A DNA stretch of 64,000 nucleotides from Mesostigma viride (taxonomy: Eukaryota > Streptophyta > Mesostigmatophyceae > Mesostigmatales > Mesostigmataceae). Position numbers and translations under genes: made by a program. Below the pieces are notes generated by a model. That model ran no database searches. It worked only from the letters and a program-made list of their open reading frames with translations, and had not been told where the DNA came from. Position 1 is the first letter of the stretch. Each line of letters opens with the position of its first letter. Where the stretch lies: positions 138,501-202,500 of the forward strand of contig RPFO01000595.1 of the NCBI GenBank assembly GCA_009746045.1, written 5' to 3'. Below, piece by piece: positions 8,753 through 44,839 of this stretch.

Positions 8753-9087
8753 AATGAGCCGGGCGGCCAACTTTTGGAAAATTTCAGCGTTCGTGTCTGA
8801 TATTTTTGTTTCGGACACCCCCCATGATTTGCATGTCCGCTGTTGGAAAAATAATGAAAAAAAATCTGTCGGAAAAATAATGAAAAATCAAAAAAGGAAA
8901 AATCAAGGAAAAATAATGAAAAAAAGCATGATACATCAAGGATACCGACACAAAACCTAGCGCCCGTCACAAGCAAAGTCGTGCCTGGAATTGCCACATG
9001 GCATGACGTGACGAGTTTGTGATTCCATCATTCATCATTCTGCCTCGCAGGTCGCGGTCGCTCCAGGCCGAAAGGGCCCACTGCACA
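8753..9087. other. AT/purine-rich spacer
   Basis: It contains a purine-rich stretch with repeated GGAAAAATAATGAAAA-like words (8,845-8,930). No gene is seen. It ends where the large inverted repeat begins. Confidence 0.5.
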
Positions 9088-12000
9088 GGCGAAAGAGTTT
9101 TTGTAAACAACAGACACTGTTCCGAACAGACGATGCGCAAGGCTGGGCGCGGCGCAGAGTGCGCAAGGCTGGCGTGCGCAATTAAGGCTGGGGAGTGCGC
9201 GAGTGTCGAGGCTGGGAGTGCGCAAGGCTGGGCGCGGCGCTCGGGCGTAACAACGTTAAGGCAGGCCAGGCGCAGGCACGTAAAAACACGGGCGACGGGC
9301 CATGGGCCACGGGCCACGCGTCGGCCGTCGGCCCAGCCATTCCTGCATTTTAGGAACGTTGCCGGGCACAAAATTCAAATTCTGGTGCGGCATGGCTGCG
9401 GCAGCTACCTGGCCTGGGCTGGCCGACGTTGGCATGGACGACTGTCAAGAAAGAGTTCATCTCGCTTGGGTAAGCTGCGGTTGTTTCGTCTGGGCGCTCT
9501 TCCCATTTTATTGCTAACGGGTCGATTTACTTACCCAACGTTTCCATCCAGGGCAGAAATGCCAGCGACTTTTCAGTCGGCCACTTCCATTTTTTACCCA
9601 CTTCGAGTCGTAACGTCATCCAAGGAATACTTTACCCTCTGTATTCCGGCCTGTCTCCTTCTATTTCGCAGGAACCCTTCGCTTCTGGTTGGCGTTCCTG
9701 CACTGCAGGCAGGCTGCAGTCTCTACCGCTGCATTTTTTTGTAAGTACTTCGGTTGGGAAGTTCGTCTAACGTTTTTCCATCGACTGTCCTGCTTCCAAG
9801 CCAGGCCGCGTCTCTACACTGTGTTTCCGTCAGCAACGGGATGGAGGTCCGGTTTTTCATGATCGGCAACCGTTTTGGTCACGTCATTTTCAGCAACACG
9901 CAACTGCCTCTGCCTTACACGCTGCGCTTTGTCGTCCTTCCGTCGGTTCGGGAAAGCTTCTTACGTCTTTCCATTACATCATTACCGTCCAGGTAGTTTC
10001 TTACCATTTGCTTTCGGTCGGCAACGGGTCGGGAGCATATACAGTGGGTCATTATCCGCAATGCAGCTTCCCCCCTGTTTTCCCCACAGGCTCTCCCTGT
10101 ATTTCCTTGGGGAACATCTTTGGATTAGCTCCCGTGCATCAAACGTGCATCAAGAACACATTTTTTAGGGAGACTTTGGCTGTTCGTGGGATGGGAAGCA
10201 CTACTGTGCCCATGTTTTCCACTGCTTGATCTTGACTGCATACCCCACGCACCTGTCACCCACCTGACTTTTGCTAGTAGTTGCTGGATTTTTTCTTATA
10301 GCAGGTGCTGCGTGCTGGTGATTGACATTACGGTCGCCATTGCTTGCCAGTAATTCAAAGTTGCTTGAAATGGTCAGCATCACGGCCAAGTCTACGTTCA
10401 GATCCTGCTTGGAATTTGTGGCGGGCGTTTTCTGTATTGGATGAACGCCAGTTTTTGTGACAGTGTGATTGTGTATAGGAACAAGTTTGAAGCAACAGCA
10501 CACGTAGCATATTCATACTCATATACATGCGCTTAATGTGAACGATGTAGCCTAGGGCGAAGAGCGTTGGTTTACACGACGACGTATTCAAAGTATAACT
10601 TCTGTAAACAAGTATCCATCTGCGTGTTTTAATTCATTTTGGCAGCCATGCATGTGCACAAGAGTACCAATTAATTATTCCTACACTAGGGGTCGATGTA
10701 TTTAGCATTCACTTTGGCATTTACTGCGGCAATGCCATTACTCCGTGGCTCCCCAATGGGACATGTACTGTGTCTTGTTGTGTTGACAGCGTGTAATAAG
10801 TGTTGCAACGAACTAGGCAAGGGCTAATGGACTAAACTGTGAGGGGCAGCACATTGATTGCCGCATCGAAGCCAAGAATCATTTAGCACTCGCAGTTAGG
10901 TATCGCCATGATGCAGAGAAATTGTTGTGGCCTGACCACTTGAGGCAGTGAGACAAGGTTGGATGCCCTCCCAATCAGTGTATAGGGGTTGAAGGTTGTT
11001 TTATTGCCACCCATGTGACGCAATATACGCGTGCTTGATGAGTGGATGGATGGATGGATGGATGGATGGATGGATGGATGGATGGATGGATGGATGGATG
11101 GATGGATGGATGGATGGATGGATGGATGGATGGATGGATGGATGGATGGATGGATGGATGGATGGATGGATGGATGGATGGATGGATGGATGGATGGATG
11201 GATGGATGGATGGATGGATGGATGGATGGATGGATGGATGGATGGATGGATGGATGGATGGATGGATGGATGGATGGATGGATGGATGGATGGATGGATG
11301 GATGGATGGATGGATGGATGGATGGATGGATGGATGGATGGATGGATGGATGGATGGATGGATGGATGGATGGATGGATGGATGGATGGATGGATGGATG
11401 GATGGATGGATGGATGGATGGATGGATGGATGGATGGATGGATGGATGGATGGATGGATGCATGGATGCATGGATGCATGGATGCATGGATGCATGGATG
11501 CATGGATGCATGGATGCATGGATGCATGGATGCATGGATGCATGGATGCATGGATGCATGGATGCATGGATGCATGGATGCATGGATGCATGGATGCATG
11601 GATGCATGGATGCATGGATGCATGGATGCATGGATGCATGGATGCATGGATGCATGGATGCATGGATGCATGGATGCATGGATGCATGGATGCATGGATG
11701 CATGGATGCATGGATGCATGGATGCATGGATGCATGGATGCATGGATGCATGGATGCATGGATGCATGGATGCATGATGCATGGATGCATGGATGCATGG
11801 ATGCATGGATGCATGGATGCATGGATGCATGGATGCATGGATGCATGGATGCATGGATGCATGGATGCATGGATGCATGGATGCATGGATGCATGGATGC
11901 ATGGATGCATGGATGCATGGATGCATGGATGCATGGATGCATGGATGCATGGATGCATGGATGCATGGATGGATGATTGGCTAACAAAGTGAGTGCTTGC

Positions 12001-12292
12001 GTGTCGTGCGCATGGTCATGTTAGTCCTCCTTGCCTCCCTATGAAACGAAGGGTTGAGAAAGCATGTTTGGGCTCGGCGGCTGCCATATTGTAGTGGCAT
12101 GCACACACGGGCTGTTGGGAGCCACGGGGAAGAGAATATGAGAAATCGGGTTAGCCAGCGCTTTGATTGCCAATTTGTAGCCATCCACTAGGCTGCTGTT
12201 TAGAATGGTAGGTACTTTTACACACTTTATACAGACGTCCACTTAAGCTAAATTTGGACTAATTGAGCTCTGAGACATCATGGTGGTGCCGG
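9088..12292. repeat. Left arm of a ~3-kb inverted repeat
   Basis: The sequence from GAGTTTTTGTAAACAACAGA (about 9,088) to GGTGGTGCCGGT (12,292) recurs in reverse complement at 39,676-42,575, continuing at 49,450-49,545. The arms differ by scattered substitutions (for example G/C differences near 10,345) and by the internal layout of the microsatellite, so they are real diverged copies. No gene is recognised; ORFs at 9,019-10,230 have no family signature. This arm preserves the empty target site of the Copia element found in the other arm. Confidence 0.9.
11040..11972. repeat. (GGAT)n then (GCATGGAT)n microsatellite
   Basis: About 420 bp of uninterrupted (GGAT)n, ending at 11,460, is followed by about 510 bp of (GCATGGAT)n, with one 4-bp slip at 11,773. 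All six frames are open only because neither unit contains a stop, so the long WMDG/HPSI reading frames here are not genes. Confidence 0.98.
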
Positions 12293-14063: not shown

Positions 14064-15781
14064 CTCGTCGTCTGTCCCAACTCAGTCCTAATAATAGGAC
14101 TGAGTTGACCTTTTTCAACCGTGTGTAGTGACTAGGTGGGGGGTCCATCCAAGATGCTTAGACGTGGGTCTATGGAGTATTTGATGTCCTCTTGCTGGCA
14201 AAAATACTACATCAGTGAAAACTTGACCCAAACTCCTAAAAATTACATGGATGTATGGCACCGTCGGCGAATTTGCATTTTTGTGTGGAAGCATGAGTGG
14301 CAAAAATTGAATAAATTCCATATGCATGTTAAAAAAATACAGGCATGTAAACAATATAGTTCTTGACCTGTGGCAAAAAACTGGACTCAATTTGGCCACT
14401 GGCACTGCCTGAAACACGCCAAATACTGCCAGTCCTATACATAGGACTGGGCCATGCTAGCAATTGGCAAGCATGTAAGTGCGGTCATACTTCATAGTAG
14501 CGTGGCCACAAACCATGTCAATCAGCCCATTTCCCTTCAGGCATAATAGGAAAACATACTTGCATCATCATATTGCAGTTATATTGTACCTTAGTATGTG
14601 TAAAAGCCTATGCATACATATAGGGAATGCGTATGGATACGTAGCTACAAAGGGATGTATTATAAGTAATAACCACCGATATAATGGGTAGGTTAGTCAC
14701 ATTTAATTGTTCTTTACAAGAATGGACATGGATAAAACTGTATTACCTTGCCATGACATGGCCAAGATACCTGCTGGCACATGATGACAGTGGTTTATCA
14801 CCAAGATTTTTCACTCACCCGTATAAGCTTGACAGTACCCTTGACGCAGCCCATGACCACACAATCATGCAGTATGAACATAGCAAGAGAATAACTAACA
14901 TCTATGAAAGCGTTTTAACCCATTCAGCACCTAAAACCTTGTACAGCCACGCTACGGTAAGGCAAATGCCTGGTCAGATCATCTAAAAAGATGGTTTTAG
15001 AGAGGGGCAGGCAACGGTCAAGAAAGAGCAGCAAGACTCAAAACTGACAGCGCATCGCAAGCTTAAACTCATGTAAGAATACCAAGAAACGATGAAGCAG
15101 CGATATTCCAGCTTTACCTGGCACGGCTGGCGTTACCTTGGCCCAGGCGGTGCCTGCAAAAGTGGCACTTTGCGGCACACAAACCATGACGTGACAGAGT
15201 GGTCGAAATCATCAAATCTTTACTGCCACTAGACTTAATCTACGACAATACATGATAAAAGGTAGAAAGAAACCTATAAACCCTTCGATTTGATCCGGGA
15301 ATCAATTGTAGTAATCCATTCCGTCGACCTGTCTAATCGCAGATTTTTCCAGCAAGAACAGTGCCGACACCCAGTAAATCGCATCCCCGCGAGGTTAAAA
15401 TTCACTTGTATCATCTTTAGGACATAAAAAATCTATTTCCTGGGTTTGGCCCGCAAAATCGTCCGAAAACGTAAACTGCATGCATGGGCGCAAGCCGCCA
15501 TGGCTAGGTCGTGCATTTCCGGAACTCACGTTTCGCGTGAAAATGTACCCTTACCATCTGTACTTTCACCGTACGGTTAGCCTCCCAAACCAAATCCAAA
15601 AAAATCCCAAAAATATGTCCAAGAAAGATCTTTTCAAGTAGTATTTGAATAAATTTTGAGAAAATTTTTCTGCCAAATATTCCGACCGGGGCGAATTTTC
15701 TACAAAACCTCAAAATTAGGTCCTAAAATTAGGACTGAGTTGAACTCAGTCCTAAAATTAGGACCAGGGACAGACGACGAG
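14064..15781. mobile_element. TTAA-specific DNA element with palindromic ends
   Basis: A 1,718-bp insertion in ORF1 of copy A. TTAA occurs on both sides (14,060-14,063 and 15,782-15,785), and copies C and D show the uninterrupted CGTCTTAAGGA site. The 15-bp TIR CTCGTCGTCTGTCCC is perfect. Just inside lie palindromes built on AACTCAGTCCTA / TAGGACTGAGTT, once on the left and repeated on the right, with a related one (AGTCCTATACATAGGACT) near 14,433-14,450. This is a piggyBac-like target signature. No transposase is visible, so it is non-autonomous. Its ends differ from those of family X/Y. Confidence 0.88.
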
Positions 15782-15785
15782 TTAA

Positions 15786-16209
15786 GGATAACGCCATCGC
15801 TATCGAGGTTCTGCAGAACACCGCAGGCCTCACCGCCCAGGCGGTGAAGGACATTGCCGCCAAGCCAGCCCCGGCTGGCCTGGTCGGCGATGCTCCTCCC
15901 ATCACCACCTGGGCGGACATGCTTAAGCAACACACCACCTCCACCACCACCGCCGTCGCAGCCCAGCTCCAACGGCAGACGCTTGACCTCCGCGAGGAGG
16001 CCGAGCTCGCCAAGCGCAGCCTCAACGTCATTGTCAAGAACCTCAAGATGGAGGAAGGTGATGAATTCCGAGAAGCTTGCGCGTGCTTTTGAGAAAGAAA
16101 TCCTTGATCGCATGGGCCTTACTGGTGAGATCGACCTGGTCGCCCACCGCCTTCCCCGCGCGCGGGGTAAGGCAGGGGCGCCCCCACTCCTTCTCACCTT
16201 TAAGACCCC
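15786..16209 (+). pseudogene. ORF1 of copy A, middle part
   Basis: Continues the copy A ORF1 directly after the TTAA element: NAIAIEVLQNTAGLTAQ, VKDIAAKPAPAGL, the helix TWADMLKQHTTSTTTAVAAQ, then LNVIVKNLKMEEG at the start of the RRM. A frameshift occurs at the GAAGGTGATGAATTCC stretch (16,055-16,070). The RRM continues (RMGLTGEIDLVAHRLPRARG) until the reading breaks at AAGACCCC, where the 11.9-kb element begins. Confidence 0.85.
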
Positions 16210-17252
16210 CCCTAAACACCCGTAGGTTTGGTAAATTACCACATTTTTGGTACAATTTTAAAAACTGAATATTTTTGCTTGTCTGACTCATACTTGGTGC
16301 AGGATGCCTCGAGAAATGTATTTGGACCAAAAAACCTTACCCCCCCCCCGACGAAATTGACGTGAAGGTGCTTTTGAGGGCATTTTGTGCCAAATATGAC
16401 ATGTCAATTTTTCCTGACTGCAGTTTTGCTCATACAAAGGCCCATATGTGGTGGTTAAGGTCTATCTAGTGCCCCAAGAGGGATTGCAAAGTTGCACATT
16501 TTTTGGATACCTGCAGGGGTCCCAACGGTGACGTCAAGTAGCATAAAAACCGCATTTTTGCTCGGTTTTAGCCCGTTTAGGCACCCTAGACCATGCAAAT
16601 GAGCTCAGATTGCAGCCAAACTTGGCAGCTGCCCTTGCCATGCTGATAAAAGAACATGTGCAAAGTTGCACATGTTTTGGATGCCTGCAGGGCACCCTGG
16701 GTGACGTCAAATAGCATAAAAACCGCGTTTTTGCTCGGTTTTAGCCCATTTAGGCACCCTAGATCATGCAAATGAGCTCAGATTGGAGCCACACTTGGCA
16801 GCTGCCCTTGACATGCTGATAAAAGAACATGTGCAAAGTTGCACATTTTTTGGATGCCTGCAGGGCACCCTGGGTGACGTCAAATAGCATAAAAACCGCG
16901 TTTTTGATCTGTTTTAGCCCATTTAGGCACCCTAGACCATGCAAATGAGCTCAGATTGGAGCCAAACTTGGCAGCTGCCCTTGCCATGCTGATAAAAGAA
17001 CATGTGCAAAGTTGCACATGTTTTGGATGCCTGCAGGGCACCCTGGGTGACGCCAAGTAGCATAAAAATAATTGACGTGAAGGCGCAAATACGACATGTC
17101 AATTTTTTCTGGCTGCAGTTTTGCTCTAAACATGGCCCATATGTGGTGGTTAAGGTCTATCTAGTACCCCAATCTTGAGGGATTGCAAAGTTGCACATTT
17201 TTTGGATACCTGCAGGGGTCCCAACGGTGACAACAAGTAGCATAAAACCGCG

Positions 17253-19140
17253 CTGATATAAGGGCTAAGACGCACACGCTGATATAATTTCCCAAAGCTA
17301 TTACGCAATATACGATGAGCAAACGCCTTTCGACGCAACGCAGCCTGGCGGCTGCGCTCGGCACTGAAAATACGCCTGCAGCTTCGGCTGCAGCTTCGCC
17401 CACCGGCCCAGATGGCAACGGTGACACTAGTCGTGCGCTGGTGCTCGCCCAGCCTCCCGGGCTCGCCTCGATCGCCCTCTGCATCGCCTGAACCTAAGCG
17501 CAGTCGCTCTGCTGAGCCGCCCTGGGAAGAGACCTCCTTTGACGTCAACAGCTCCGGCTTCTGGCGACGCAGCCCCGCAGCCTTCATGGAAGACGTGTTT
17601 TCCGGCAATCACGCCTCGCTTCTAGCCCTGTGCGTGTACCTCACGTCCCACAACCGTGGCCGCTGGCCTGGTGACGGCAAGCTTGTCGACCCCGCCGAGG
17701 CTCTCCCAATCATTCACCGCATGAGTCGCCCCAAGCTCCAACGCTTCGCCCTCTGCTCCCTTGTTGGACGCTCCGAATCCGAGATCTGGGCTTCCCAACC
17801 GCCCCCCCCCACCTTCCCCACCGAAGCCACCATCCGCACCCTCCTCAAGGAAGCTTTCGAGCAGCATGTGACCCCTCTTGCCGCAGATGTGGCGGCACTT
17901 GGCGGCACGCTGGCTGCTGAGCTCCCCACCATCCCCACCGCCACCGCCACCCTCCTCGCCTCCACCTCCCCCCCCCCTCCGTCTCCACCGACTCCATCAC
18001 CGCCCAGCTCCGCGACATCGACCAGCGCCTCAAGGATAATGCCATCGCTATCGAGGTTCTGCAGAACACCGCAGGCCTCACCGCCCAGGCGGTGAAGGAC
18101 ATTGCCGCCAAGCCAGCCCCGGCTGGCCTGGCCGGCGATGCTCCTCCCATCACCACCTGGGCGGACATGCTTAAGCAACATACCACCTCCACCACCTCCG
18201 CCGTCGCAGCCCAGCTTCAACGGCAGACGCTTGACCTCCGCGAGGAGGCCGAGCTCGCCAAGCGCAGCCTCAACGTCATTGTCAAGAATCTCAAGATGGA
18301 GGAAGGTGAGAATTCCGAGAAGCTTGCGCGTGCTTTTGAGAGAGAAATCCTTGATCGCATGGGCCTTACTGGTGAGATCGAGCTGGCCGCCCACCGCCTT
18401 CCCCGCGCGCCGGGTAAGGCCGGGCCGCCCCCGCTCCTTCTCACCTTTAAGACCCCGGCGGACAAGATTTCTTTTCTCAGACGCCGCAAGCGGCTCGAGA
18501 AGACTCTCTTCACCCTTGACGACGACTTGACCCTGGCACAGCAACAACGGCGACGGGAGCTATGGCCGACCTACCTCCAGCTCCGGCAGACCAAGGCGGG
18601 CCAGCCGGTGTACTGGAAGGGGGCGGCCATCTACGTCGGCCACAAGCCCTGGCAAGCGACCCCCTCAACCACCGCGGCCCCAGCAACTCCAGCCCCAGCC
18701 TAGGGGAATACAGCAGTGTAGACTAGTTAGACAGTGGCCTTGTACATGCCCGCCTACTACAGGCACTATACCAGCTGAGGCCTAGCCTTTTTAGTCATGT
18801 ACATGTGTGCCTATGATGTGCCACACTCCAGACGATGCCTAGCCTTATTTAGTAATGTTGTGCCCATGCAGGGAGTCACTCTCTGCTGAGAAGCCATGCC
18901 ATAGCTCTTGTATAGCCATGATGATCTTCCCCCTCACAGGCATGCTCCCCCCTTACCCGGGCATAGCGTGATAGACCATGAGGGTGCGGGTGCCCTGGTG
19001 CACCTAGAGCAAGTGTTGTTTACATTCCCACCCTTGCAGGAAGTAGCTTAGAATGTATTATAGGCTCATATGCCCCTTCTCAGGGCTATGTGCTACATAT
19101 ACTCCCAACGGAGTTATGTTCCTAATTAATTAATTAATTA
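17253..19140 (+). mobile_element. ORF1-only retroposon copy B (complete insertion)
   Basis: A 1,888-bp unit inserted in a satellite monomer. The TSD ATAAAACCGCG is at 17,242-17,252 and 19,141-19,151. Order: a 62-bp 5' UTR remnant, ORF1 (17,315-18,703), a 3' UTR of about 420 bp with the hairpin ACTCC-CAAC-GGAGT, then a (TTAA)n tail. There is no reverse transcriptase and no sign of internal deletion inside an ORF2. The clean TSD shows that this short form moves as a unit, presumably with RT supplied in trans. Confidence 0.9.
17315..18703 (+). pseudogene. ORF1 of copy B (L1 ORF1p-like), frameshifted
   Basis: The start ATG at 17,315 reads MSKRLSTQRSLAAALG. After a frameshift near 17,470-17,490 the frame at 17,412 mod 3 continues (PSASPEPKRSRSAEP) with a distinctive N-terminal domain only distantly like copies C and D. 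A C-run at about 17,968-17,977 requires a -1 shift into the C-terminal frame (18,092-18,703). That frame encodes a coiled-coil-like helix, the RRM (LNVIVKNLKMEEG, RMGLTGEIELAAHRLP, LLLTFKTPADKISFL) and the C-terminal domain (LDDDLTLAQQQRRRELWPTY, GQPVYWKGAAIYVG). These are the L1 ORF1p signatures: an RNA-binding chaperone packaged with element RNA. The C-terminal frame is fully open for 203 codons. Confidence 0.85.
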
Positions 19141-20599
19141 ATAAAACCGCGGTTTTGCTCGGTTTTAGCCTGTTTAGGCACCCTAGACCATGCAAATGAG
19201 CTCAGATTGGAGCCAAACTTGGCAGCTGCCCTTGCCATGCTGATAAAAGAACATGTGCAAAGTTGCACATTTTTTGGATGCCTGCAGGGCACCCTGGGTG
19301 ACGTCAAATAGCATAAAAACCGCGTTTTTGCTCGGTTTTAGCCCATTTAGGCACCCTAGACCATGCAAATGAGCTCAGATTGGAGCCAAACTTGGCCGCT
19401 GCTCTTGACATATGCTGATAAAAGAACATGTGCAAAGTTGCACATTTTTTGGATGCCTGCAGGGCACCCTGGGTGACGTCAAATAGCATACAAAATGCAT
19501 TTTTGATCGGTTTTAGCCCATTTAGGCACCCTAGACCATGCAAATGAGCTCAGATTGCAACCAAACTTGGCAGCTGCTCTTGCCATGCTGATAAAAGAAC
19601 ATGTACAAAGTTGCACATCTTTTGGATGCCTGCAGGGCACCCTGGGTGACGTCAAATAGCATAAAAACCGCGTTTTTGATCTGTTTTAGCCCATTTAGGC
19701 ACCCTAGACCATGCAAATGAGCTCAGATTGCAACCAAACTTGGCAGCTGCTCTTGCCATGCTGATAAAAGAACATGTGCAAAGTTGCACATGTTTTGGAT
19801 ACCTGCAGGGCACCCTGGGTGACGCCAAGTAGCATAAAATTAATTGACGTGAAGGCGCAAATACGACATGTCAATTTTTCCTGGCTGCAGTTTTGCTCTA
19901 AATATGACTCATATGTGGTGGTTAAGGTCTATCTAGTACCCCAAGAGGGATTGTAAAGTTGCACATTTTTTGGATACCTGCAGGGGTCCCAACGGTGACG
20001 TCAAGTAGCATAAAACCGCGGTTTTGCTCGGTTTTAGCCTGTTTAGGCACCCTAGACCATGCAAATGAGCTCAGATTGCAGCCAAACTTGGCAGCTGCCC
20101 TTGCCATGCTGATAAAAGAACATGTGCAAAGTTGCACATTTTTTGGATGCCTGCAGGGCACCCTGGGTGACGTCAAGTAGCATAAAACCGCGGTTTTGCT
20201 CGGTTTTAGCCCATTTAGGCACCCTAGACCATGCAAATGAGCTCAGATTGCAGCCAAACTTGGCAGCTGCCCTTGCCATGCTGATAAAAGAACATGTGCA
20301 AAGTTGCACATTTTTTGGATACCTGCAGGGCACCCTGGGTGACGTCAAGTAGCATAAAAACCGCGGTTTTAGCCCATTTAGGCACCCTAGACCATGCAAA
20401 TGAGCTCAGATTGCAGCCAAACTTGGCAGCTGCCCTTGCCATGATGAAAAAAGAACATGTGCAAAGTTGCACATTTTTTGGATGCCTGCAGGGCACCCTG
20501 GGTGACGTCAAATAGCATAAAAGCCGCATTTTTGCTCGGTTTTAGTCCGTTTAGGCACCCTAGACCATGCAAATGAGCTCAGATTTCACCCTAACTTTC

Positions 20600-22219
20600 C
20601 ATATTGCAAAAAGAACACAAGTCCATGCATGCTCAGTACTGGCCAATCAATGGATTTCACATATCAGTTATCTTTGCGTAATTGACACATGGCCCCGTGC
20701 CAACCATTAATTGATATATTGACATGACATGACATGACATGAAATCAATAAATCAAAAACGTGTGTGCATGAGGTATAGGCACATTAAAAAACATGGATA
20801 GGCAGGGAATCATGACGACACCATTACCAAGGCGTGCGCATGCTGCGCCACCAGCCTATTATGATCAATCGCGCTCCGCCTCATCCGCCTCATCATCACT
20901 GTCTACACTAATGTCATCAATGTTTTCCATATCCGATTCATCGTCACTTGAGTGGACATCGTGGTGGATGTCGACTGTGGTGGCATTACACACCGGAGGC
21001 ACAGCAGGAGCTCCCGTAGAACTGCCAGCACCATTGTCAACTTGGTACTGCTGCAAGACTTGCTCACGGCCAAAAGCATTTACACCGTAAGGGCACCCAC
21101 ACACAAATTTCAGCACGTCCTCTAGCTTGCTATACTCCTCATACTGCCCATCACTCCATACAAGTTTGAAAGCATGGCCCACCTTTGTAACCCACCCATG
21201 GAACCTCTTTTGCCTTCTTGGCTTGCCCGCTAAAAAGAGTGCGCATTTCCGCATGCCTATAGCAATGCAGCACTCCCTCTCTCACGGAAGTAAGATTCAC
21301 ATGCCACCTGGGTCGTACGTTCTGAGGCTTGCACTGTCTTGTACCCCTCAAAGTCAATGTCAGGATGAAGCTTCAAGGCATCTAGCGTCCCTTGGTTGAG
21401 CTTCCTTGCCCCCGTCAGCTTTGGCGTATGGACTACCGCCCCATTTCCAACGGTCCAGTGTTGCAAAACAATGTCGTTATATGGAACAACTAACCCCTGG
21501 TTGCTTTGCCCACTGGCCGACCCTGCCCCCAGGTGCACCTTATTGAACTGCCCGGTCCACGAGCTGGCGTGATATGGCGCAACCACGATGGAATCTGGGG
21601 TTGGCCCATCCAAGTCAATAACCTGCGCCAACATGTGGCCCATCCAAAACACGTGCATCGCAAAATCCCACCAAAAGCAATATTAAGTATTATCAAGGAG
21701 ACAACCAGCGCAGGCCAGAAATCGGGAGAATCCGGACCATGGTAGCTCGAGCCTGCCGTTATCTTGTCCGCGTGTTCGAGTCGTTCAGGATGATGAAGAT
21801 GAATGGTGATGGAAATGTGTTGCCTTGTGCATTGAAATAAAGGCTGGCTTACGTGTAGAGCGACTAGATTACCTAGACGGTGGGGCCTAATTAAGTATTA
21901 TGATCACAACAGAAATACTGCGACGACAGCGGCCGGCAAGACCGCTATCACCCAAGGTTTCGGTGACTGCGGCCATTCGGAGAATTCGACCGATCGCGCG
22001 CATCGTACGCCTTCTGTCAGCAAGGCAACCGCCATCAATATTAATCGAATGTCTAGCATTCTCGCTCAGCCTCGCGTGTCGCTTATAGAGCACCTTTAAC
22101 TTACGACGGCTATGCGAGAAAATTGCTGCCCGAGTGCTGGGATGGTATTGCAGGCTGCATAATTCACACCAGCCCCGGCACCTTCTGCATACGCAGTGCC
22201 CGTGCACGCTGGCACGCAC
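20600..22219 (-). pseudogene. Degenerate gene inside the 11.9-kb element, unknown
   Basis: Three - strand open stretches appear to belong to one decayed gene. 22,219 to about 21,890 has a Cys-rich piece (CVCRRCRGWCELC, then H). After the SINE at 21,694-21,889, 21,658-21,257 reads MLAQVIDLDGPTPDSIVV and NQGLVVPYNDIVLQHW. Then 21,254-20,865 reads FHGWVTKVGHAFKLVWSDGQ and YEEYSKLEDVLKFV, resembling a Tudor/chromo-like barrel, and ends in an acidic tail (SSDDESDMENIDD). The frames do not join cleanly. It could be the remnant of a transposase-associated protein, but I cannot name the family. About 265 bp of AT-rich 3' sequence follows (20,600-20,864). Confidence 0.45.
21694..21889 (+). mobile_element. 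SINE copy 1 (short form, 196 bp)
   Basis: The TSD ATTAAGTATTAT lies at 21,682-21,693 and 21,890-21,901, so insertion was by retroposition. It begins CAAGGAGACAACCAGCGCAG. It contains GTTCGAGTC (21,774-21,782), a perfect match to the RNA polymerase III box B core, and TAGCTCGAG (21,743-21,751), resembling box A, 31 bp upstream. It matches the first ~196 bp of the 330-bp copies at 30.3 and 57.8 kb. Confidence 0.8.
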
Positions 22220-22228
22220 CGCCTGGTT

Positions 22229-22495
22229 GGCCAGCCTGTCAATTATGTCAATTATGTCAATTATTTGTTTGGGAGCATTTGTAAAGTATTAGAATCTTAC
22301 GTAGTTACATGGTCAAAACTACATAGTCAAAATTACTAGGTCTTGGTATCAAAGCCCTTAGAAAGTGCAGATTTTAGTGATTTTCCTTGGAAAATAAAAC
22401 TTTAACATTGAAAGTCTAGCAAAAGTTTACGCAAACAAATAATTGACATAATTGACATAATTGACATAATTGACATAATTGACATAATTGACAGG
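22229..22495. repeat. Inverted pair of (TTGACATAA)n runs
   Basis: CTGTCAATTATGTCAATTAT... with ATTTGTTTG at 22,229-22,272 is matched in reverse complement by a longer run (six units) at 22,430-22,495. The 160 bp between may form the loop of a small foldback element. No TSD was recognised. Confidence 0.6.
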
Positions 22496-22634
22496 TCGGA
22501 CGAGGACGAGGCCAGGCCTCGGCCTGGTGAGTCGAGACAAAATATAGCCAGCATTGTACGATACCTAATAATGACAGACTGTACAAACAAATCAAGTAAC
22601 GTGCGTGTTTGCAACTTGCCCGTTGAAACTCTAC

Positions 22635-22835
22635 GGCGGAGCCAATTTTCGGAAGAACCTCACCCTTATGCTTGCAAATTCGGGACAAATTCGGTGGATG
22701 GATGGATGGATGGATGTATGTATGGATGGATTGACGGATTTTCATCCCCTATTCCTATGTTTTCTCACGTGTACGGCCTTATAAGCTTCGCCAATTCTGG
22801 CGAACCTAACGGTTCTTCCGAAAATTGGCTCCGCC
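22635..22835. mobile_element. 201-bp foldback/MITE with 25-bp perfect TIR
   Basis: GGCGGAGCCAATTTTCGGAA... at 22,635-22,659 recurs exactly in reverse complement at 22,811-22,835. The interior contains a short GGAT run. No convincing TSD was found, so mobility is inferred only from the perfect inverted ends. Confidence 0.6.
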
Positions 22836-22839
22836 TGAT

Positions 22840-24130
22840 AATTGACATACTCGTGATGCGACACGAGGACACAGTAAACTGGACAGGACATGCACGTGGT
22901 CGCAGTGGCCCCTGCCCAAAAGCCGCCATTTCACAAGCAGCCAACTGCCAAGCAACGTCGAAGGATTGTTCGTCGCAATGCTATGAATCTGTATAGTCGT
23001 ATAGACGGCAACATGCGAATTCGGCAGAGGACTACCCATTCCGGCTCAAACCATGTCTATTTTATTTGCCATCAATGAGTAATGCCGAATTGGTCGTTGG
23101 TCAACGGTTTAGTTTTCGTTGCTCAGTCGTTTCGAAGAGGTTTTATTTATAGGCAGCTGGCAGAATGACATACTTCGGAGGTCCTGGGGTAATGGGTTCT
23201 CTTGCGTCCTGGAATGTTGCTATTAAACATCTAGAGACACTGCATGACGGGAGAAAGTCCGGTTGCTGGCTTGGCTAATACCACACCGCGGAAGTACGGT
23301 GAAAGGTAGCGCGCTGACCAACCGAGAGTTCGAGTATATTTACAGATCTGCTGTTATAATAATAATGAATGTTTTGGCATTTTCTCAAGGGGAAATTCTT
23401 TTTTTCCCGTGCGAGCACGAGGACTGGCTGCTGATCAATTTTGCAACTCGTGCAGGCCCTTGATGAATCGAACTTGAGCAGCTGAATACTGCAAGCTGCT
23501 GGTGATGCTCACGAGAACGGCTATGTTGGCATTCTCGGCACCATCCATTGGAAACGTGCAGTCGCGGAACCTATTCCTGGTGAAATGAAGTTTCGGGCAA
23601 TGGGATTGCAGACTGGACCGGAAGTGGTCGAACCTTGACCCCGATGGCGGTGATGACCAGTTGTCCTATTGTGACACGCGATCGAGGCAATCAAAAGGTA
23701 AGAAGGGCGGGTGTTGTTGAGGCTGAAGCTGTTAAAAAATATGGGCTTAAGTGCGCATGCAGCATGACCAGGCGTGGACCCTGAGGAGGAAATCAAACTT
23801 AGCCCTGCACTTTCTTGGCGTACTTTTGGTTAAGCATTTGGCTGGCCGAGTGGCCGTTACCACAGTCCGTTGCTTACCACAGTGGCAGGAAGAAATTCGC
23901 TTTATTTGCAATGATGAACATGTTAATTGATGTGGGGAAGCATTTTTAGGTGATAGTACATTGCAACATCTTACTAGGGCCTATCTATAGATTTATCGTT
24001 GTGTGAGGCACACCAATCCCTATCCACAACTGTAGCGGCCATCCAGCTGTGTGAGACTCACTCATGCGAGCACATATGCTCGATTGGGTAATGCGTAGAC
24101 TAAGTACTAACAGAGGCAGGCCTCCCGACG
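22840..24130. other. Interior of the 11.9-kb element, no clear gene
   Basis: Short open stretches occur (for example + strand about 22,890-23,078, rich in basic residues), but none has a family signature or a convincing splice structure. It may contain remains of the element's own coding region. Confidence 0.4.
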
Positions 24131-24133
24131 GCA

Positions 24134-24812
24134 CCCACCCACCCACCCACCCACCCACCCACCCACCCACCCACCACCCACCCGCCCACCCGCCCGCCCG
24201 CCCGCCCGCCCGCCCACCCGCCCACCCGCCCGCCCGCCCACCCCCGCCCGCCCGCCCGCCCGCCCGCCCGCCCGCCGCCCGCCCGCCCGCCCGCCCGCCC
24301 ACCCACCCACCCACCCACCCACCCACCCACCCACCCACCCACCCACCCACCCACCCACCCACCCACCCACCCACCCACCCACCCACCCACCCACCCACCC
24401 ACCCACCCACCCACCCACCCACCCACCCACCCACCCACCCACCACCCACCCACCCACCCACCACCCACCCACCCACCCACCCACCCACCCACCCACCCAC
24501 CCACCCACCCACCCACCCACCCACCCACCCACCCACCCACCCACCCACCCACCGGCCACCCACCCACCCACCGGCCACCCACCCACCCACCCACCCACCC
24601 ACCCACCCACCCACCCACCCACCCACCCACCCACCCACCCACCCACCCACCCACCCCCACCCACCCACCCACCCACCCACCCACCCACCCACCCACCCAC
24701 CCACCCGCCCACCCACCCACCCACCCGCCCACCCACGCACCCACCCACCTGCACCTACCCACCTGCACCTACCCACGGGCCACCCACGTACCACCCACCC
24801 ACCCACCCATTT
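24134..24812. repeat. (CCCA/CCCG)n microsatellite
   Basis: About 670 bp of CCCA repeats, with a CCCG-rich block at 24,181-24,300 and scattered one-base slips. It is strongly strand-asymmetric: G-rich on the - strand (TGGG)n, a pattern able to form G-quadruplex structures. It abuts the right satellite array. The long Gly/Val/Trp and His/Pro frames are artefacts of the repeat. Confidence 0.97.
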
Positions 24813-24827
24813 GAAATGTCGTATTCG

Positions 24828-27800
24828 CGCCTTCACGTCAAATAATCTTATGCTACTTGGCATCAGCCAGGGTGCCCTGCAGGTATCCAAAAATGTGCAA
24901 CGTTGCAAATGTGCTTTTTGCAGCATACCAAGGGCAGCTGCCGAGTTTGGCTGCAATCTTCAGGAGCTCATTTGCATGGTCTACGGTGCCTAAGCGGGCT
25001 GAAATCGTGCGACATCGTGGTTTTTATGCTACTAAACGTCACCGTTGGGACCCCTGCAGGTATCCAAAAAATGTGCAACTTTGCAATCCCTCTTGGGGTA
25101 CTAGAGAGACCTTAACCACCACATATGGGCCTATGTATGAGCAAAACTGCAGCTAGGAAAAATTGACATGTCGTATTTGCGCCTTCACGTCAATTATTTT
25201 TATGCTACTTGGCGTCACCCAGGGTGCCCTGCAGGTATCCAAAACATGTGCAACTTTGCACATGTTCTTTTATCAGCATGGCAAGAGCAGCTGCCAAGTT
25301 TGGCTGCAATCTGAGCTCATTTGCACGGTCTAGGGTGCCTAAACGGGCTAAAACCGAGCAAAAATGCGGTTTTTATGCTATTTGACGTCACCCAGGGTGC
25401 CCTGCAGGCATCCAAAAAATGTGCAACTTTGCACATGTTCTTTCTTTAGCATGGCAAGGGCAGCTGCCAAGTTTGGCTGCAATCTGAGCTCATGTGCATG
25501 GTCTAGGGTGCCTAAACAGGCTAAAATCGTGCCACATCGCGGTTTTTATGCTACTTGACGTCACCGTTGGGACCCCTGCAGGTATCCAAAAAATGTGCAA
25601 CTTTGCAATCCCTCTTGGGGTACTAGATAGACCGTAACCACCACATATGGGCCATGTTTAGAGCAAAACTGCAGCCAGAAAAAATTGACATGTCGTATTT
25701 GCGCCTTCACGTCAATTATTTTTATGCTACTTGGCGTCACCCAGGGTGCCCTGCAGGTATCCAAAACATGTACAACTTTGCACATGTTCTTTTATCAGCA
25801 TGGCAAGAGCAGCTGCCAAGTTTGGTTGCAATCTGAGCTCATTTGCATGGTCTAGGGTGCCTAAATGGGCTGAAACCGAGCAAAACTGCGTTTTTTATGC
25901 TATTTGACGTCACCCAGGGTGCCCTGCAGGCATCCAAAAAATGTGCAACTTTGCACATGTTCTTTTATCAGCATGGCAAGGGCAGCTGCCAAGTTTGGCT
26001 GCAATCTGAGCTCATGTGCATGGTCTAGGGTGCCTAAACAGGCTAAAACCGAGCAAAACCGCGGTTTTATGCTACTTGACGTCACCGTTGGGACCCCTGC
26101 AGGTATCCAAAAAATGTGCAACTTTGCAATCCCTCTTGGGGCACTAGATAGACCTTAACCACCACATATGGGCCATGTTTAGAGCAAAACTGCAGCCAGA
26201 AAAAATTGACATGTCGTATTTGCGCCTTCACGTCAATTATTTTTATGCTACTTGGCGTCACCCAGGGTGCCCTGCAGGTATCCAAAACATGTGCAACTTT
26301 GCACATGTTCTTTTATCAGCATGGCAAGAGCAGCTGCCAAGTTTGGTTGCAATCTGAGCTCATTTGCATGGTCTAGGGTGCCTAAATGGGCTGAAACCGA
26401 GCAAAACTGCATTTTTATGCTATTAATGACGTCACCCAGGGTGCCCTGCAGGCATCCAAAAAATGTGCAACTTTGCACATGTTCTTTTATCAGCATGGCA
26501 AGGGCAGCTGCCAAGTGTGGCTCCAATCTGAGCTCATTTGCATGGTCTAGGGTGCCTAAACAGGCTAAAACCGAGCAAAACCGCGGTTTTATGCTACTTG
26601 ACGTCACCGTTGGGACCCCTGCAGGTATCCAAAAAATGTGCAACTTTGCAATCCCTCTTGGGGTACTAGATAGACCTTAACCACCACATATGAGTCATAT
26701 TTAGAGCAAAACTGCAGCCAGAAAAAATTGACATGTCGTATTTGCGCCTTCACAACAATTATTTTTATGCTACTTGGCGTCACCCAGGGTGCCCTGCAGG
26801 TATCCAAAACATGTGCAACTTTGCACATGTTCTTTTATCAGCATGGCAAGAGCAGCTGCCAAGTTTGGCTGCAATCTGAGCTCATTTGCATGGTCTAGGG
26901 TGCCTAAATGGGCTGAAACCGAGCAAAACTGCATTTTTATGCTATTTGACGTCACCCAGGGTGCCCTGCAGGCATCCAAAATATGTGCAACTTTGCACAT
27001 GTTCTTTTATCAGCATGGCAAGGGCAGCTGCCAAGTGTGGCTCCAATCTGAGCTCATTTGCATGGTCTAGGGTGCCTAAACAGGCTAAAACCGAGCAAAA
27101 ACGCGTTTTTTATGCTATTTGACGTCACCCAGGGTGCCCTGCAGGCATCCAAAAATGTGCAACGTTGCAAATGTGCTTTTTGCAGCATACCAAGGGCAGC
27201 TGCCGAGTTTGGCTCCAATCTGAGCTCATTTGCATGGTCTAGGGTGCCTAAACAGGCTAAAACCGAGCAAAAATGCGGTTTTTATGCTACTTGACGTCAC
27301 CGTTGGGACCCCTGCAGGCATCCAAAAAATGTGCAACTTTGCAATCCCTCTTGGGGTACTAGATAGACCTTAACCACCACATATGGGCCATGTTTAGAGC
27401 AAAACTGCAGCCAGAAAAAATTGACATGTCGTATTTGCGCCTTCACGTCAATTATTTTTATGCTACTTGGCGTCACCCAGGGTGCCCTGCAGGCATCCAA
27501 AACATGTGCAACTTTGCACATGTTCTTTTATCAGCATGGCAAGGGCAGCTGCCAAGTTTGGCTGCAATCTGAGCTCATTTGCATGGTCTAGGGTGCCTAA
27601 ACAGGCTAAAACCGAGCAAAACCGCGGTTTTATGCTACTTGACGTCACCCAGGGTGCCCTGCAGGCATCCAAAAGATGTGCAACTTTGCACATGTTCTTT
27701 TATCAGCATGGCAAGGGCAGCTGCCAAGTTTGGCTCCAATCTGAGCTCATTTGCATGGTCTAGGGTGCCTAAACAGGCTAAAACCGAGCAAAACCGCGGT

Positions 27801-27975
27801 TTTTATGCTACTTGACGTCACCGTTGGGACCCCTGCAGGTATCCAAAAAATGTGCAACTTTGCAATCCCTCTTGGGGCACTAGATAGACCTTAACCACCA
27901 CATATGAGTCATATTTAGAGCAAAACTGCAGTCAGGAAAAATTGACATGTCATATTTGGCACAAAATGCCCTGAA
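24828..27975 (-). repeat. Right subterminal satellite array (inverted)
   Basis: The same ~172-bp monomers and their longer variant as on the left, in reverse complement (TTTTATGCTACTTGACGTCAC, CCCTGCAGG, TTTGCATGGTCTAGGGTGCC). They run without interruption for about 3.1 kb. The longer variant (with ACATATGGGCC and GACATGTCGTATTT) recurs every two to four monomers, a higher-order pattern. Both arrays end next to the element's TIRs through a related non-repeated stretch (27,976-28,142; 16,210-16,375). Confidence 0.92.
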
Positions 27976-28142
27976 AAGCACCTTCACGTCAATTTTCTGA
28001 CACAAGCCATGAAAAATTTTTGGTCAGAACATTGTTTTGGTGTTTTTCCCAACCATATGCGTCATTGAAGACCAAAAAACGCATATCTCAAAAAATTTGG
28101 CTTTGGTAAATGCAAATTTACCAAACCTACGGGTGTTTGGGG

Positions 28143-28389
28143 CCCGGCGGACAAGATTTCTTTTCTCAGACGCTGCAAGCGGCTCAAGAAGACTCTCTTC
28201 ACCCTTGACGACGACTAGTTGACCCTGGCGCAGCAACAACGGCGACGGGAGCTATGGCCGACCTACCTCCAGCTCCGGCAGACCAAGGCGGGCCAGCCGG
28301 TGTACTGGAAGGGGGCGGCCATCTACGTCGGCCACAAGCCCTGGCAGGCGACCCCCGCGGCCCCAGCGACTCCAGACGCCCCAGCTTAG
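28143..28389 (+). pseudogene. ORF1 of copy A, C-terminal part
   Basis: It resumes exactly where the ORF1 broke at 16,209: PADKISFLRR, then KKTLFTLDDD, an inserted TAG codon (28,215-28,217), LTLAQQQRRRELWPTY, QPVYWKGAAIYVG, and a stop at 28,387-28,389. The copy A 3' UTR then runs to 28,750, where copies E and C inserted, and finishes at 38,197-38,275. Confidence 0.88.
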
Positions 28390-28750
28390 GGGAATACAGC
28401 AGTAGTAGTGTAGCATAGATAGACCGTGGCCATGTACATGTACGCCTCCTAGAGGCACTATTCCAGCTAAGCCATGCGCTTTATTTAATCATGTACATGT
28501 GTGCCTATGATGAGCCACACTCCAGATGATGCCTAGCTTTATTTAGTAATGTTGTGCCCATGCAGGGAGTAACTCTCTGCTGAGACGGCCATGCCCTAGC
28601 TTTTGTATAGCTATGCTGATCTTCCCCCCCATGACAGGCTCCCCCTTCGCTGGGCATAGCTTGAAGATCATGGGGATGCAAGTGCCTTGGTGCACCTAGA
28701 GCAAGGGTCCTTTACATCCCCACCCTTGCAGGAAGTAGCTTAGGATGTAT

Positions 28751-39675: not shown

Positions 39676-42575
39676 GCACCACCATGATGTCTCAGAGCTC
39701 AATTAGTCCAAATTTAGCTTAAGTGGACGTCTGTATTAAGTGTGTGAAAGCACCTACCATTCTAAACAGCAGCTTAGTGGATGGCTACCAATTGGCAATC
39801 AAAGCGCTGGCTAACCCGATTTCTCATATTCTCTTCCCCGTGGCTCCCAACAGCCCGTGTGTGCATGCCACTACAATATGGTAGCCGCCGAGCCCAAACA
39901 TGCTTTCTCAACCCTTCGTTTCATAGGGAGGCAAGGAGGACTCACATGCCCATGCGCACGACACGCAAGCACTCACTTTGTTAGCCAATCATCCATCCAT
40001 GCATCCATGCATCCATGCATCCATGCATCCATCCATGCATCCATGCATCCATCCATGCATCCATGCATCCATCCATGCATCCATGCATCCATGCATCCAT
40101 GCATCCATGCATCCATGCATCCATGCATCCATGCATCCATGCATCCATGCATCCATGCATCCATGCATCCATGCATCCATGCATCCATGCATCCATGCAT
40201 CCATCCATCCATGCATCCATCCATCCATCCATCCATCCATCCATCCATCCATCCATGCATCCATCCATGCATCCATCCATGCATCCATCCATGCATCCAT
40301 CCATGCATCCATCCATGCATCCATCCATCCATGCATCCATCCATGCATCCATCCATGCATCCATCCATGCATCCATCCATCCATCCATCCATCCATCCAT
40401 CCATCCATCCATCCATCCATCCATCCATCCATCCATCCATCCATCCATCCATCCATCCATCCATCCATCCATCCATCCATCCATCCATCCATGCATCCAT
40501 CCATCCATCCATCCATCCATCCATCCATCCATCCATCCATCCATCCATCCATCCATCCATCCATCCATCCATCCATCCATCCATCCATCCATCCATCCAT
40601 CCATCCATCCATCCATCCATCCATCCATCCATCCATCCATCCATCCATCCATCCATCCATCCATCCATCCATCCATCCATCCATCCATCCATCCATCCAT
40701 CCATCCATCCACTCATCAAGCACGCGTATATTGCGTCACATGGGTGGCGATAAAACAACCTTCAACCCCTATACACTGATTGGGAGGGCATCCAACCTTG
40801 TCTCACTGCCTCAAGTGGTCAGCCCACAACAATTTCTCTGCATCATGGCGATACCTAAGTGCGAGTGCTAAATGATTCTTGGCTTCAATGTGGCGGAAAA
40901 TCAATGTGCTGCCCCTCACAGTTTAGTCCATTAGCCCTTGCCTAGTTCGTTGCAACACTTATTACACGCTGTCAACACAACAAGACACAGTACATGTCCC
41001 ATTGGGGAGCCACGGAGTGATGGCATTGCTGCAGTAAATGCCAAAGTGAATGCTAAATACATGGACCCCTAGTGTAGGAATAATTAATTGGTACTCTTGT
41101 GCACATGCATGGCTGCCAAAATGAATTAACACACGCAGATGGATGCTTGTTTACAGAAGTTATACTTTGAATACGTCGTCGTGTAAACCAACGCTCTTCG
41201 CCCTAGGCTACATCGTCCACATTAAGCGCATGTATATGAGTATGAATATGCTACGTGTGCTGTTGCTTCAAACTTGTTCCTATACACAATCACACTGTAA
41301 CAAAAACTGGCGTTCATCCAATACAGAAAACGCCCGCCACAAATTCCAAGCAGGATCTGAACGTAGACTTGGCCGTGATGCTGACCATTTCAAGCAACTA
41401 TGAATTACTGGCAAGCAATTGCGACCGTAATGTCAATCACCAGCACGCAGCACCTGCTATAAGAAAAAATCCAGCAACTACTAGCAAAAGTCAGGTGGGT
41501 GACAGGTGCGTGGGGTATGCAGCCAAGATCAAGCAGTGGAAAACATGGGCACAGTAGTGCTTCCCATCCCACGAACAGCCAAAGTCTCCCTAAAAAATGT
41601 GTTCTTGATGCACGTTTGATGCACGGGAGCTAATCCAAAGATGTTCCCCAAGGAAATACAGGGAGAGCCTGTGGGGAAAACAGGGGGGAAGCTGCATTGC
41701 GGATAATGACCCACTGTATATGCTCCCGACCCGTTGCCGACCGAAAGCAAATGGTAAGAAACTACCTGGACGGTAATGATGTGATGGAAAGACGTAAGAA
41801 GCTTTCCCGAACCGACGGAAGGACGACAAAGCGCAGCGTGTAAGGCAGAGGCAGTTGCGTGTTGCTGAAAATGACGTGACCAAAACGGTTGCCGATCATA
41901 AAAAACCGGACCTCCATCCCGTTGCTGACGGAAACACAGTGTAGAGACGCGGCCTGGCTTGGAAGCAGGACAGTCGATGGAAAAACGTTAGACGAACTTC
42001 CCAACCGAAGTACTTACAAAAAAATGCAGCGGTAGAGACTGCAGCCTGCCTGCAGTGCAGGAACGCCAACCAGAAGCGAAGGGTTCCTGCGAAATAGAAG
42101 GAGACAGGCCGGAATGCAGAGGGTAAAGTATTCCTTGGATGACGTTACGACTCGAAGTGGGTAAAAAATGGACTGAAGTGGCCGACTGAAAAGTCGCTGG
42201 CATTTCTGCCCTGGATGGAAACGTTGGGTAAGTAAATCGACCCGTTAGCAATAAAATGGGAAGAGCGCCCAGACGAAACAACCGCAGCTTACCCAAGCGA
42301 GATGAACTCTTTCTTGACAGTCGTCCATGCCAACGTCGGCCAGCCCAGGCCAGGTAGCTGCCGCAGCCATGCCGCACCAGAATTTGAATTTTGTGCCCGG
42401 CAACGTTCCTAAAATGCAGGAATGGCTGGGCCGACGGCCGACGCGTGGCCCGTGGCCCATGGCCCGTCGCCCGTGTTTTTACGTGCCTGCGCCTGGCCTG
42501 CCTTAACGTTGTTACGCCCGAGCGCCGCGCCCAGCCTTGCGCACTCCCAGCCTCGACACTCGCGCACTCCCCAGC
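39676..42575. repeat. Right arm of the ~3-kb inverted repeat
   Basis: Reverse complement of 9,187-12,292, including the flanks of the microsatellite. Its distal ~95 bp were displaced to 49,450-49,545 by the Copia insertion. There is no recognisable gene in the arm. Confidence 0.9.
39998..40711. repeat. (ATCC)n / (ATGCATCC)n microsatellite
   Basis: Counterpart of 11,040-11,972 in the other arm, but with a different internal order: ATGCATCC units to about 40,200, mixed ATCC/ATGC blocks to 40,375, then pure (ATCC)n with a single ATGC at about 40,492. The two arrays have therefore rearranged independently. Confidence 0.97.
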
Positions 42576-43751: not shown

Positions 43752-44075
43752 ATGGCTTCCGGCACTCGCAGCCAGGTCGCTTCCGCGGGTCGCGCTGCTG
43801 GCAGTAACGATTTTGATGCCGATGACGCTGCCGGTCTGGCCGCTTTGACTGCATCATCCGTAACTCTTACCGATTCGGGTCTCCCAGGCGAAGTATTTTT
43901 TGACGCAGCAGCTGGGCTGGCTGCCCTGGCTTTGCACCCGCCAGGTGGTGACGAGGACGCCGCCCACGGTGCTCCCGACGGTGAGAATCCGGCGGTTGAC
44001 GGTGGTGGTTTGAGCCGCGGTACGGCGGGGGGGGCCCCGCCCGAGCCTCCTTTGTGGCTTGCAAGGAGCTTTTGA
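43752..44075 (+). CDS. Copia gag N-terminal segment
   Basis: ATG at 43,752 (MASGTRSQVASAGRAAGSND). It reads about 95 codons before the frame is lost at an 8-G run (44,023-44,032). In the -1 frame the sequence continues naturally as ASFVACKELLKDVRG into the long polyprotein. The frame as written stops at 44,073-44,075. Either a base was lost or gained in the homopolymer, or the junction is a slip site. It is the amino end of the gag region, with no domain of its own. Confidence 0.75.
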   Translation: MASGTRSQVASAGRAAGSNDFDADDAAGLAALTASSVTLTDSGLPGEVFFDAAAGLAALALHPPGGDEDAAHGAPDGENPAVDGGGLSRGTAGGAPPEPPLWLARSF

Positions 44076-44749: not shown

Positions 44750-44780
<31 letters not shown>

Positions 44781-44797
44781 ACGGCACCGGCAACGGA

Positions 44798-44839
<42 letters not shown>

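Follow-up and report, generated by a model that had tools for sequence, protein, structure and literature searches.

The window analysed here, a 64-kb stretch of contig RPFO01000595.1 from the alga Mesostigma viride, holds a transposable element of 11,933 bp at positions 16210-28142. The element is bounded by 28-bp terminal inverted repeats (TIRs), is flanked by a CCC target-site duplication (TSD) and carries opposed arrays of 173-bp monomers. It sits in a decayed open reading frame (ORF) which, like a fragment nested in its left array, we take to be the ORF1 of a long interspersed nuclear element (LINE). Among PDB entries, the rbcL product of this assembly comes closest to 1gk8, from Chlamydomonas, which marks the host as a green alga. 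Relatives of the element were searched for in the genome of the same alga (440 Mb in 2243 contigs), and tandem repeats were delimited with Tandem Repeats Finder (TRF). The features of the locus are as follows.

15764-16209, continuing at 28143-28420, plus strand: host site, decayed LINE-type ORF1, left half (paralog alignment)
16207-16209: left TSD, CCC (joined flanks against the paralogous ORF1, junction gapless)
16210-16237, plus strand: left 28-bp TIR (TIR word search, shuffles, comparison of copies)
16238-16353, plus strand: left end-specific subterminal spacer, absent from the right end (two ends of copy C335b compared)
16354-17252, plus strand: left array, outer part, a B-type lead-in and then monomers (TRF, monomer anchors)
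17254-19137, plus strand: nested LINE-type ORF1 fragment that splits the left array, at the A-rich side of a box (boundaries approximate)
19143-20597, plus strand: left array, inner part, 173-bp monomers (TRF)
20598-24131: internal core common to the copies read (0.2-1.0% substitutions against C335b)
21260-21682, minus strand: gene remnant, first piece, 141-aa open frame (similarity to family-2 ORF B)
20868-21281, minus strand: gene remnant, last piece, 138-aa open frame with an acidic C-terminus, in another frame (similarity to family-2 ORF B)
24132-24809: (CACC)n simple repeat leading from the core to the right array (TRF)
24848-27864, minus strand: right array, ~173-bp monomers in opposite orientation (TRF, anchors, box matches)
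27865-28114, minus strand: right subterminal region, a B-type lead-in and then an end-specific spacer (end comparison)
28115-28142, minus strand: right 28-bp TIR (TIR word search, shuffles, comparison of copies)
28143-28145: right TSD, CCC (joined flanks against the paralogous ORF1)

The original prediction, made from the letters of the window, had drawn the element from 16207 to 28145; the element is real, but that span also takes in both CCC duplications. The 28-bp TIRs it described are confirmed. In the window copy they are identical at 27 of 28 positions, the difference lying at the tip (CCCT versus CCCC), and none of 100 shuffled sequences contains their 24-base inner word, which the window holds twice. 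The predicted CCC duplication is borne out by a paralog of the host ORF1 at ~18032-18700, itself nested in the left array, which serves as an empty site. When the flanks are joined with one CCC removed, 662 of 698 columns match this paralog, with 17 gap positions elsewhere and none at the junction, so that taking out the element and one duplication regains the empty site at this single locus, by comparison with a paralog inside the same window. The prediction that the reading of ORF1 resumes exactly holds for the frame, but the host copy was already broken before the insertion: compared with the paralog, it carries a 1-base indel upstream of the junction and, downstream, an insertion of three bases (TAG). 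Pfam scans of the host ORF1 and of the nested ORF1 fragment gave no match. The check for empty sites with a 3-bp duplication had been proposed for other strains; what stands in its place is the paralogous site within the window, which fits.

Genome-wide, the TIR word has 53 matches (25 forward, 28 reverse; 47 exact) against none for its reversed control, and these include 19 facing pairs spanning 8.4-48.4 kb, ten of which were read whole and one more in part. The ten full copies are spread over nine contigs with distinct flanks. Nine of them carry a 3-bp TSD (AAT, GAG, CAA, TAC, GTC, CAT, CTT, CAA and CCC) without common sequence, the sole exception being C1421, which has a changed tip and flanks that do not match; at 1/64 per copy, at least nine matches in ten would arise by chance with a probability of 5e-16. 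An assembly artefact, or a chance arrangement of unrelated repeats, has the general difficulty of repeat assembly as the sole point in its favour and is refuted by these multiple insertion sites, together with the empty-site paralog; we put its likelihood close to nil.

The family ends in CCCCAAACACCCGTAGGTTTGGTAAATT, and TIR identity stops at base 28 in all ten copies. In the one copy whose two ends were compared end to end (C335b), these are alike at bases 1-28, differ over ~115 bases and are then 98% alike from positions 145/148 inwards. TIRs and a target duplication of fixed length at many sites place the family in the TIR order of class II transposons. Across the ten copies the 3.2-kb core differs from that of C335b by only 0.2-1.0% substitutions, which points to recent movement: the window element is one copy of a young, recently moving family. 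One outcome that would have counted against the earlier proposal, the lack of a second copy, did not occur.

TRF places arrays of period 172-173 at 16485-17068 and 19143-20597 on the plus strand and at 25197-27864 on the minus strand, in agreement with the ~172-bp monomers predicted in opposite orientation near each end. The arrays are subterminal, monomer similarity starting ~276 bp in from each tip. With one anchor per monomer, 331 monomers were cut from the ten full copies and the partial one, 192 of them 173 bp long and 73 of them 176 bp. Two types are distinguished, A with 255 and B with 76 monomers; B occupies mostly every third to fourth position, and both have a segment of ~60 bp in common. 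Each array has a fixed outer edge in all ten whole copies: the distance from tip to first anchor is 318 or 319 bp on the left (10/10) and 313-322 bp on the right (11/11). The inner edge is not fixed, and anchor counts range from 8 to 31 on the left (10 copies) and from 8 to 28 on the right (11 copies). Monomer identity within one array is 92% for type A and 97% for type B; being more diverged than the cores, the monomers show that array diversity predates the copies. The nearest relative of a monomer lies on the same side of another copy in 212 cases, in the same array in 72 and on the other side in 47, so that 284 of 331 are closest to a same-side monomer. This argues that the arrays are inherited mainly by descent, with fast length change.

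A search of the genome with one monomer returned 447 matches from the best 40 of 94 candidate regions. All 150 of the matches listed lie inward of a TIR match, 134 in 17 loci with two TIRs and 16 in three loci with one, and no free-standing monomer array is seen among them. Arrays unrelated to the TIRs, with ends varying between copies, were the other outcome feared for the original prediction, and among the listed matches none appeared. The idea that the element is a vehicle seeding independent satellite finds no support among these listed matches. Nor do we give much credence to the view that an independent genomic satellite was captured by the transposon, which then acts as its vehicle. Every insertion does introduce kilobases of tandemly repeated DNA elsewhere in the genome, as a vehicle would, but the confinement of the listed monomers to TIR-bearing loci tells against capture, as do the diverged versions of a similar array in related families, which indicate that the array is old within the group; we judge a captured satellite highly improbable. 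The monomer length does fall in the nucleosomal and centromeric range noted before, although a link to centromeres has that length as its sole basis.

Fragments of LINE-type ORF1, a label of ours, are found in three of the eleven copies, at the A-rich side of the conserved box described below, AGTAGCAT/AAAACCGCG. The inserts of C113 (L009) and C446 (L015) are 95% alike, and that of the window (17254-19137) is distant from them, with 69% identity across 190 bases. Such fragments seem to use the arrays as landing sites.

On the minus strand, the core of the window element holds two open pieces of a gene in different frames, and these frameshifted 3' pieces are all that it keeps of that gene. The first is 49.6% identical to residues 352-476, and the last 54% identical to residues 476-561, of ORF B in a related family described below (family 2). 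The window family thus consists of TIRs with a 3-bp TSD, a core, opposed arrays and broken gene pieces. When the remnant was searched against its own genome, the best 150 of 413 candidates comprised 25 rows (24 loci) at 87-100% identity, one at 71% and 124 at 54-55%, the last group with open frames of 278-628 codons. The C-terminal half of the protein has no match over the curated cut-off in Pfam or NCBIfam; the best below it is DUF6431, for a family-3 protein (E 0.0013). A PDB search with this half yielded weak matches only, the best at E 0.006 and mostly in low-complexity parts. Single-sequence models of the two window pieces are poor, with a mean predicted local distance difference test score of 51.8 and 33.8, and with the better-modelled piece a PDB fold search found nothing at E <= 0.001. 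That the C-terminal half may include a chromatin reader of the Tudor or BAH kind is only an impression. Among viral contigs, six stretches fit a peptide pattern and none of the six encodes a relative of the DUF7869 protein introduced next.

Family 2, whose TIR has 478 genome matches at <=2 mismatches (control 0), includes a complete TIR-bounded copy with a TSD, an array and an apparently intact gene. This copy, at C2:4918685-4927591 (read on L052 and L048, C2:4917700-4929200), has identical 32-base ends, CCCTACCAGCCATTTAGAATGTACTCCAGCAC, and the TSD CGA. Its gene has two long exons, ORF A and ORF B, separated by an intron GTAAGA...TTGCAG, and an array of 173-bp monomers lies at the gene's 3' end. 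The first exon encodes a Cys-rich N-terminus followed by DUF7869 (PF25273; E 4.9e-13, 49.5 bits against a curated cut-off of 26), with the run QVDGGGDN...VGHTHIDCDQ. The second encodes the conserved C-terminal half, the part that survives in the window element. DUF7869 is the sole Pfam match in ORF A, and ORF B has none. The Pfam title of this domain gives no function, and its name appears in no paper of the literature searched. With its TIRs, its TSD and a DUF7869 protein, the complete copy belongs to a group that we propose, the DUF7869-encoding transposons; of the protein, the window element has C-terminal pieces only. The original prediction had called for autonomous relatives with a transposase between the same TIRs: such relatives exist in family 2, but not yet between identical TIRs.

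A second family-2 copy, C1690, is an element of 8.3 kb with the TIR CCCTGCCAGCCGTTAAGAATGTACTCCAGCAC (CCCTA at the other end) and the TSD ACC. Four monomers lie close to the 3' end of its gene, the opposite end of the element has none, and the gene is missing residues 184-527 of ORF A, the region that holds the DUF7869 match; as read from its sequence, it is an internal-deletion derivative of the family-2 gene. Its N-terminal exon finds 100% identity in the best 150 of 675 candidates. More widely, of 14 listed complete-class loci, 13 have DUF7869 at a distance of ~850 bp upstream of the ORF B domain, the fourteenth locus being outside the DUF7869 matches listed. The domain is widespread in the genome (best 150 of 275 candidates, some in frames of >1200 codons).

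DUF7869 has also undergone strong amplification: several families have open frames of 1200-1770 codons, and two frames exceed 4000. A near-perfect inverted repeat stands just before the family-2 N-terminal exon (L038:1387-2001; L048:2360-2692) or partly within it (L037:1606-2220). In L037 its 297-nt arms are 100% complementary around a 21-nt loop, with 31-bp units inside. This repeat may act as a promoter or, as a hairpin, give rise to small RNA.

A box, TTTATGCTA-N6-GTCAC, recurs in monomers of three families: the window family, family 2 and family 3. It points the same way with respect to the gene in each (in the window family, this refers to the array on the gene's 3' side). The window has 29 matches at <=1 mismatch, all within the arrays (expected 0.02). 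At the locus of the complete family-2 copy (L048) there are six at <=2 mismatches, four of them in the array at a 173-bp period and two elsewhere (expected 0.04 for the locus), and in family 3 (L050) three, 184 and 164 bp apart (expected 0.01). Because the motif was derived from families 1 (the window family) and 2, family 3 is an independent test of it. Within the window family the box sits in the ~60-bp segment common to A and B monomers.

That the arrays might be transposase-binding regions, as first suggested, gains support from an N6-spaced box that the window family shares with two other families encoding related proteins, although binding itself is a matter of inference. It is also possible, if rather unlikely in our estimate, that the arrays are passive: tandem duplication in an ancestral end, growing and shrinking by unequal exchange and tolerated, in which the box is inherited and not selected. 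Passive expansion and shrinkage has been proposed for the later stages of Tetris, a Drosophila virilis element (PMC4079207). Monomer number does vary widely among copies with <=1% core divergence, the ~60-bp segment common to both monomer types is what duplication of an end segment predicts, and the array of a fourth family lacks the box. What speaks against passive arrays is conservation, since a spacing of 164-184 bp and the N6 gap are kept across three families whose proteins are only 36-54% identical, although the monomers have diverged elsewhere.

The array of family 4 (L049:2143-2555, period 169 bp) holds runs of the octamer GGTGTCAC.

Taken together, we propose, at a probability of about 0.6, that the window element is a non-autonomous, foldback-like cut-and-paste transposon which is moved by a transposase of the DUF7869 type and for which the arrays provide a binding platform. 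The findings in family 2 strongly suggest that the DUF7869 protein is the transposase of the group, and that such an enzyme moves the window family in trans. The element itself would be an internal-deletion derivative, mobilised in trans most likely by a transposase of this kind. Each monomer would offer one box as a docking site for the transposase or a partner protein; the docking sites of an array may add specificity and assist the pairing of the two ends, which the opposed arrangement would favour, and with a spacing of 173 bp each box would occupy a similar position on one nucleosome after the next. The putative role of the arrays is thus that of a repeated protein-binding platform. Since similar arrays are present in related families whose transposase appears complete, the arrays are likely to be working parts and not passengers. 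A bolder version, in which DUF7869 proteins are the transposases of an unnamed superfamily of eukaryotic cut-and-paste elements with CCC tips and a 3-bp TSD, the nucleosome-length arrays, with one fixed box per turn, are a chromatin-aware docking platform, and part of the satellite-like DNA of algae would hence be selected transposon machinery, we regard as doubtful.

Alternatively, the arrays may serve expression or chromatin, as a terminator, promoter, nucleosome-positioning or silencing element later copied to the other end, and have no part in synapsis. The array lies downstream of the gene's 3' end in families 1-4, and only there in the two family-2 copies read, as such a role would lead one to expect. 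The monomer length is near that of a nucleosome repeat, and consensus A has a 10-bp AA/TT/TA signal (the consensus and two left-array units are equalled by 0.003, 0.003 and 0.01 of 300 controls). However, in the window family opposed arrays stand at both ends, with outer edges near 320 bp, although most of the gene is gone; this is easier to explain if the ends need their arrays, and we think a role in expression or chromatin somewhat improbable.

Several observations weigh against a DUF7869-driven element with a docking platform. Inspected by eye, none of the 150 DUF7869 matches listed (of 275) lies between any of the 19 TIR pairs of the window family. Beyond an initial CCC and a TSD of 3 bp, the termini of the window family and the complete relative, CCCCAAACACC and CCCTACCAGCC, have nothing in common, and under the tip rule of Repbase (first 11 bases, one mismatch; PMC4455052) the two families would not be joined. 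A PDB search with the DUF7869 half found no solved relative to support a DDE enzyme. The family-2 array is one-sided: in the two copies read, the left end has neither a box nor an array of this kind. Mobility within the group therefore does not depend on opposed arrays. As to the box, the 169-bp array of family 4 goes without it (a single weak match, on the opposite strand and beyond the array, was counted as absent). The three-way single-monomer test is modest, the observed value being reached by 1 in 500 controls, and pairwise best matches among families 1-3 are unexceptional (4-19 of 200 controls). Type A monomers from the two arms of one copy are 92.5% alike, against 91.6% for the same side between copies, and some exchange between arms is possible. 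Finally, the nucleosome idea has as its basis the monomer length and the AA/TT/TA signal of only some units, this signal being absent from the right-array unit tested (0.20 of controls).

The architecture of long opposed arms with tandem repeats is foldback-like, a structural class and not a lineage. It recalls Tetris, which is described as non-autonomous, with long inverted arms and tandem repeats in variable number inside an end domain; the repeats are ~220 bp long and, as here, vary in number between nearly identical copies (PMC4079207, in part). The same account proposes the array as a platform of multiplied binding sites. As far as that source describes it, Tetris differs in having 8-10-bp TSDs, no conserved ORF, a missing transposase and repeats that also form long satellite-like arrays, whereas the window family has 3-bp TSDs, a gene remnant, a complete relative and no escape of its array among the listed matches. 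Galileo, a Foldback-like P element of Drosophila, likewise has long, internally repetitive inverted ends (PMC3688188 and PMC3573991, in part). Its tandem repeats are reported to hold extra transposase binding sites, and binding by the THAP domain has been footprinted (PMC3688188); for the window element we infer binding. Among transposons with tandemly repeated arms, we found none better described than these Drosophila families, one with its enzyme missing and one of the P superfamily. The complete relative has no Pfam match to THAP or to a P-type transposase, and the 3-bp TSD departs from the 8-10 bp of the foldback-like Mutator lineage.

EnSpm/CACTA elements have repeated subterminal binding motifs and produce internal-deletion derivatives. 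A TSD of 3 bp occurs in them and their kin (PMC12730594, in part), as it does here. Unlike theirs, the termini of the window group are not CAC..GTG, and the Transposase_21 domain (PF02992) is not found in the complete relative. As the mobilising enzyme, Transposase_21 was considered and rejected: it is abundant in the genome (best 150 of 239), but none is present in the ORFs of the complete relative (L048). Only two of the 150 listed matches lie within 15 kb of a window-family TIR as judged by eye (C280 and C1324), one of them beyond the TIR and one beside a decayed copy. PIF/Harbinger elements combine a 3-bp TSD of fixed, TWA-like sequence with a DDE_Tnp_4 transposase; here the TSDs have no consensus and no such Pfam match was obtained. 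As far as tested, then, TSD and protein set the family apart from Mutator, P, EnSpm and Harbinger.

A single genome holds several families of one gene group, with a complete copy whose transposase is apparently intact, an internal-deletion derivative, arrays of like period and a common box. The function of the arrays is thus directly testable, and an uncharacterised domain, DUF7869, is tied to transposition. More generally, caution is advisable with 170-bp satellite-like repeats in algal genomes, which can be transposon ends.

Elsewhere in the window, inverted copies of another repeat lie at 9007-12015 and 39815-42605, flanked by near-identical ORFs. Each contains a long (ATGGATGC)n / (CATCCATC)n array, of 116 and 90 units. 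More tandem arrays, with periods of 35, 25, 12 and 60, occur at 60186-61185, 61321-61604 and 63133-63737. The region at 44000-48802 has a frame of 1600 codons with a Copia-type RVT_2 domain (E 1.8e-42), an integrase core, a Pol beta-barrel and a Gly-Asn repeat, and is by these domains a predicted retrotransposon polyprotein, open throughout.

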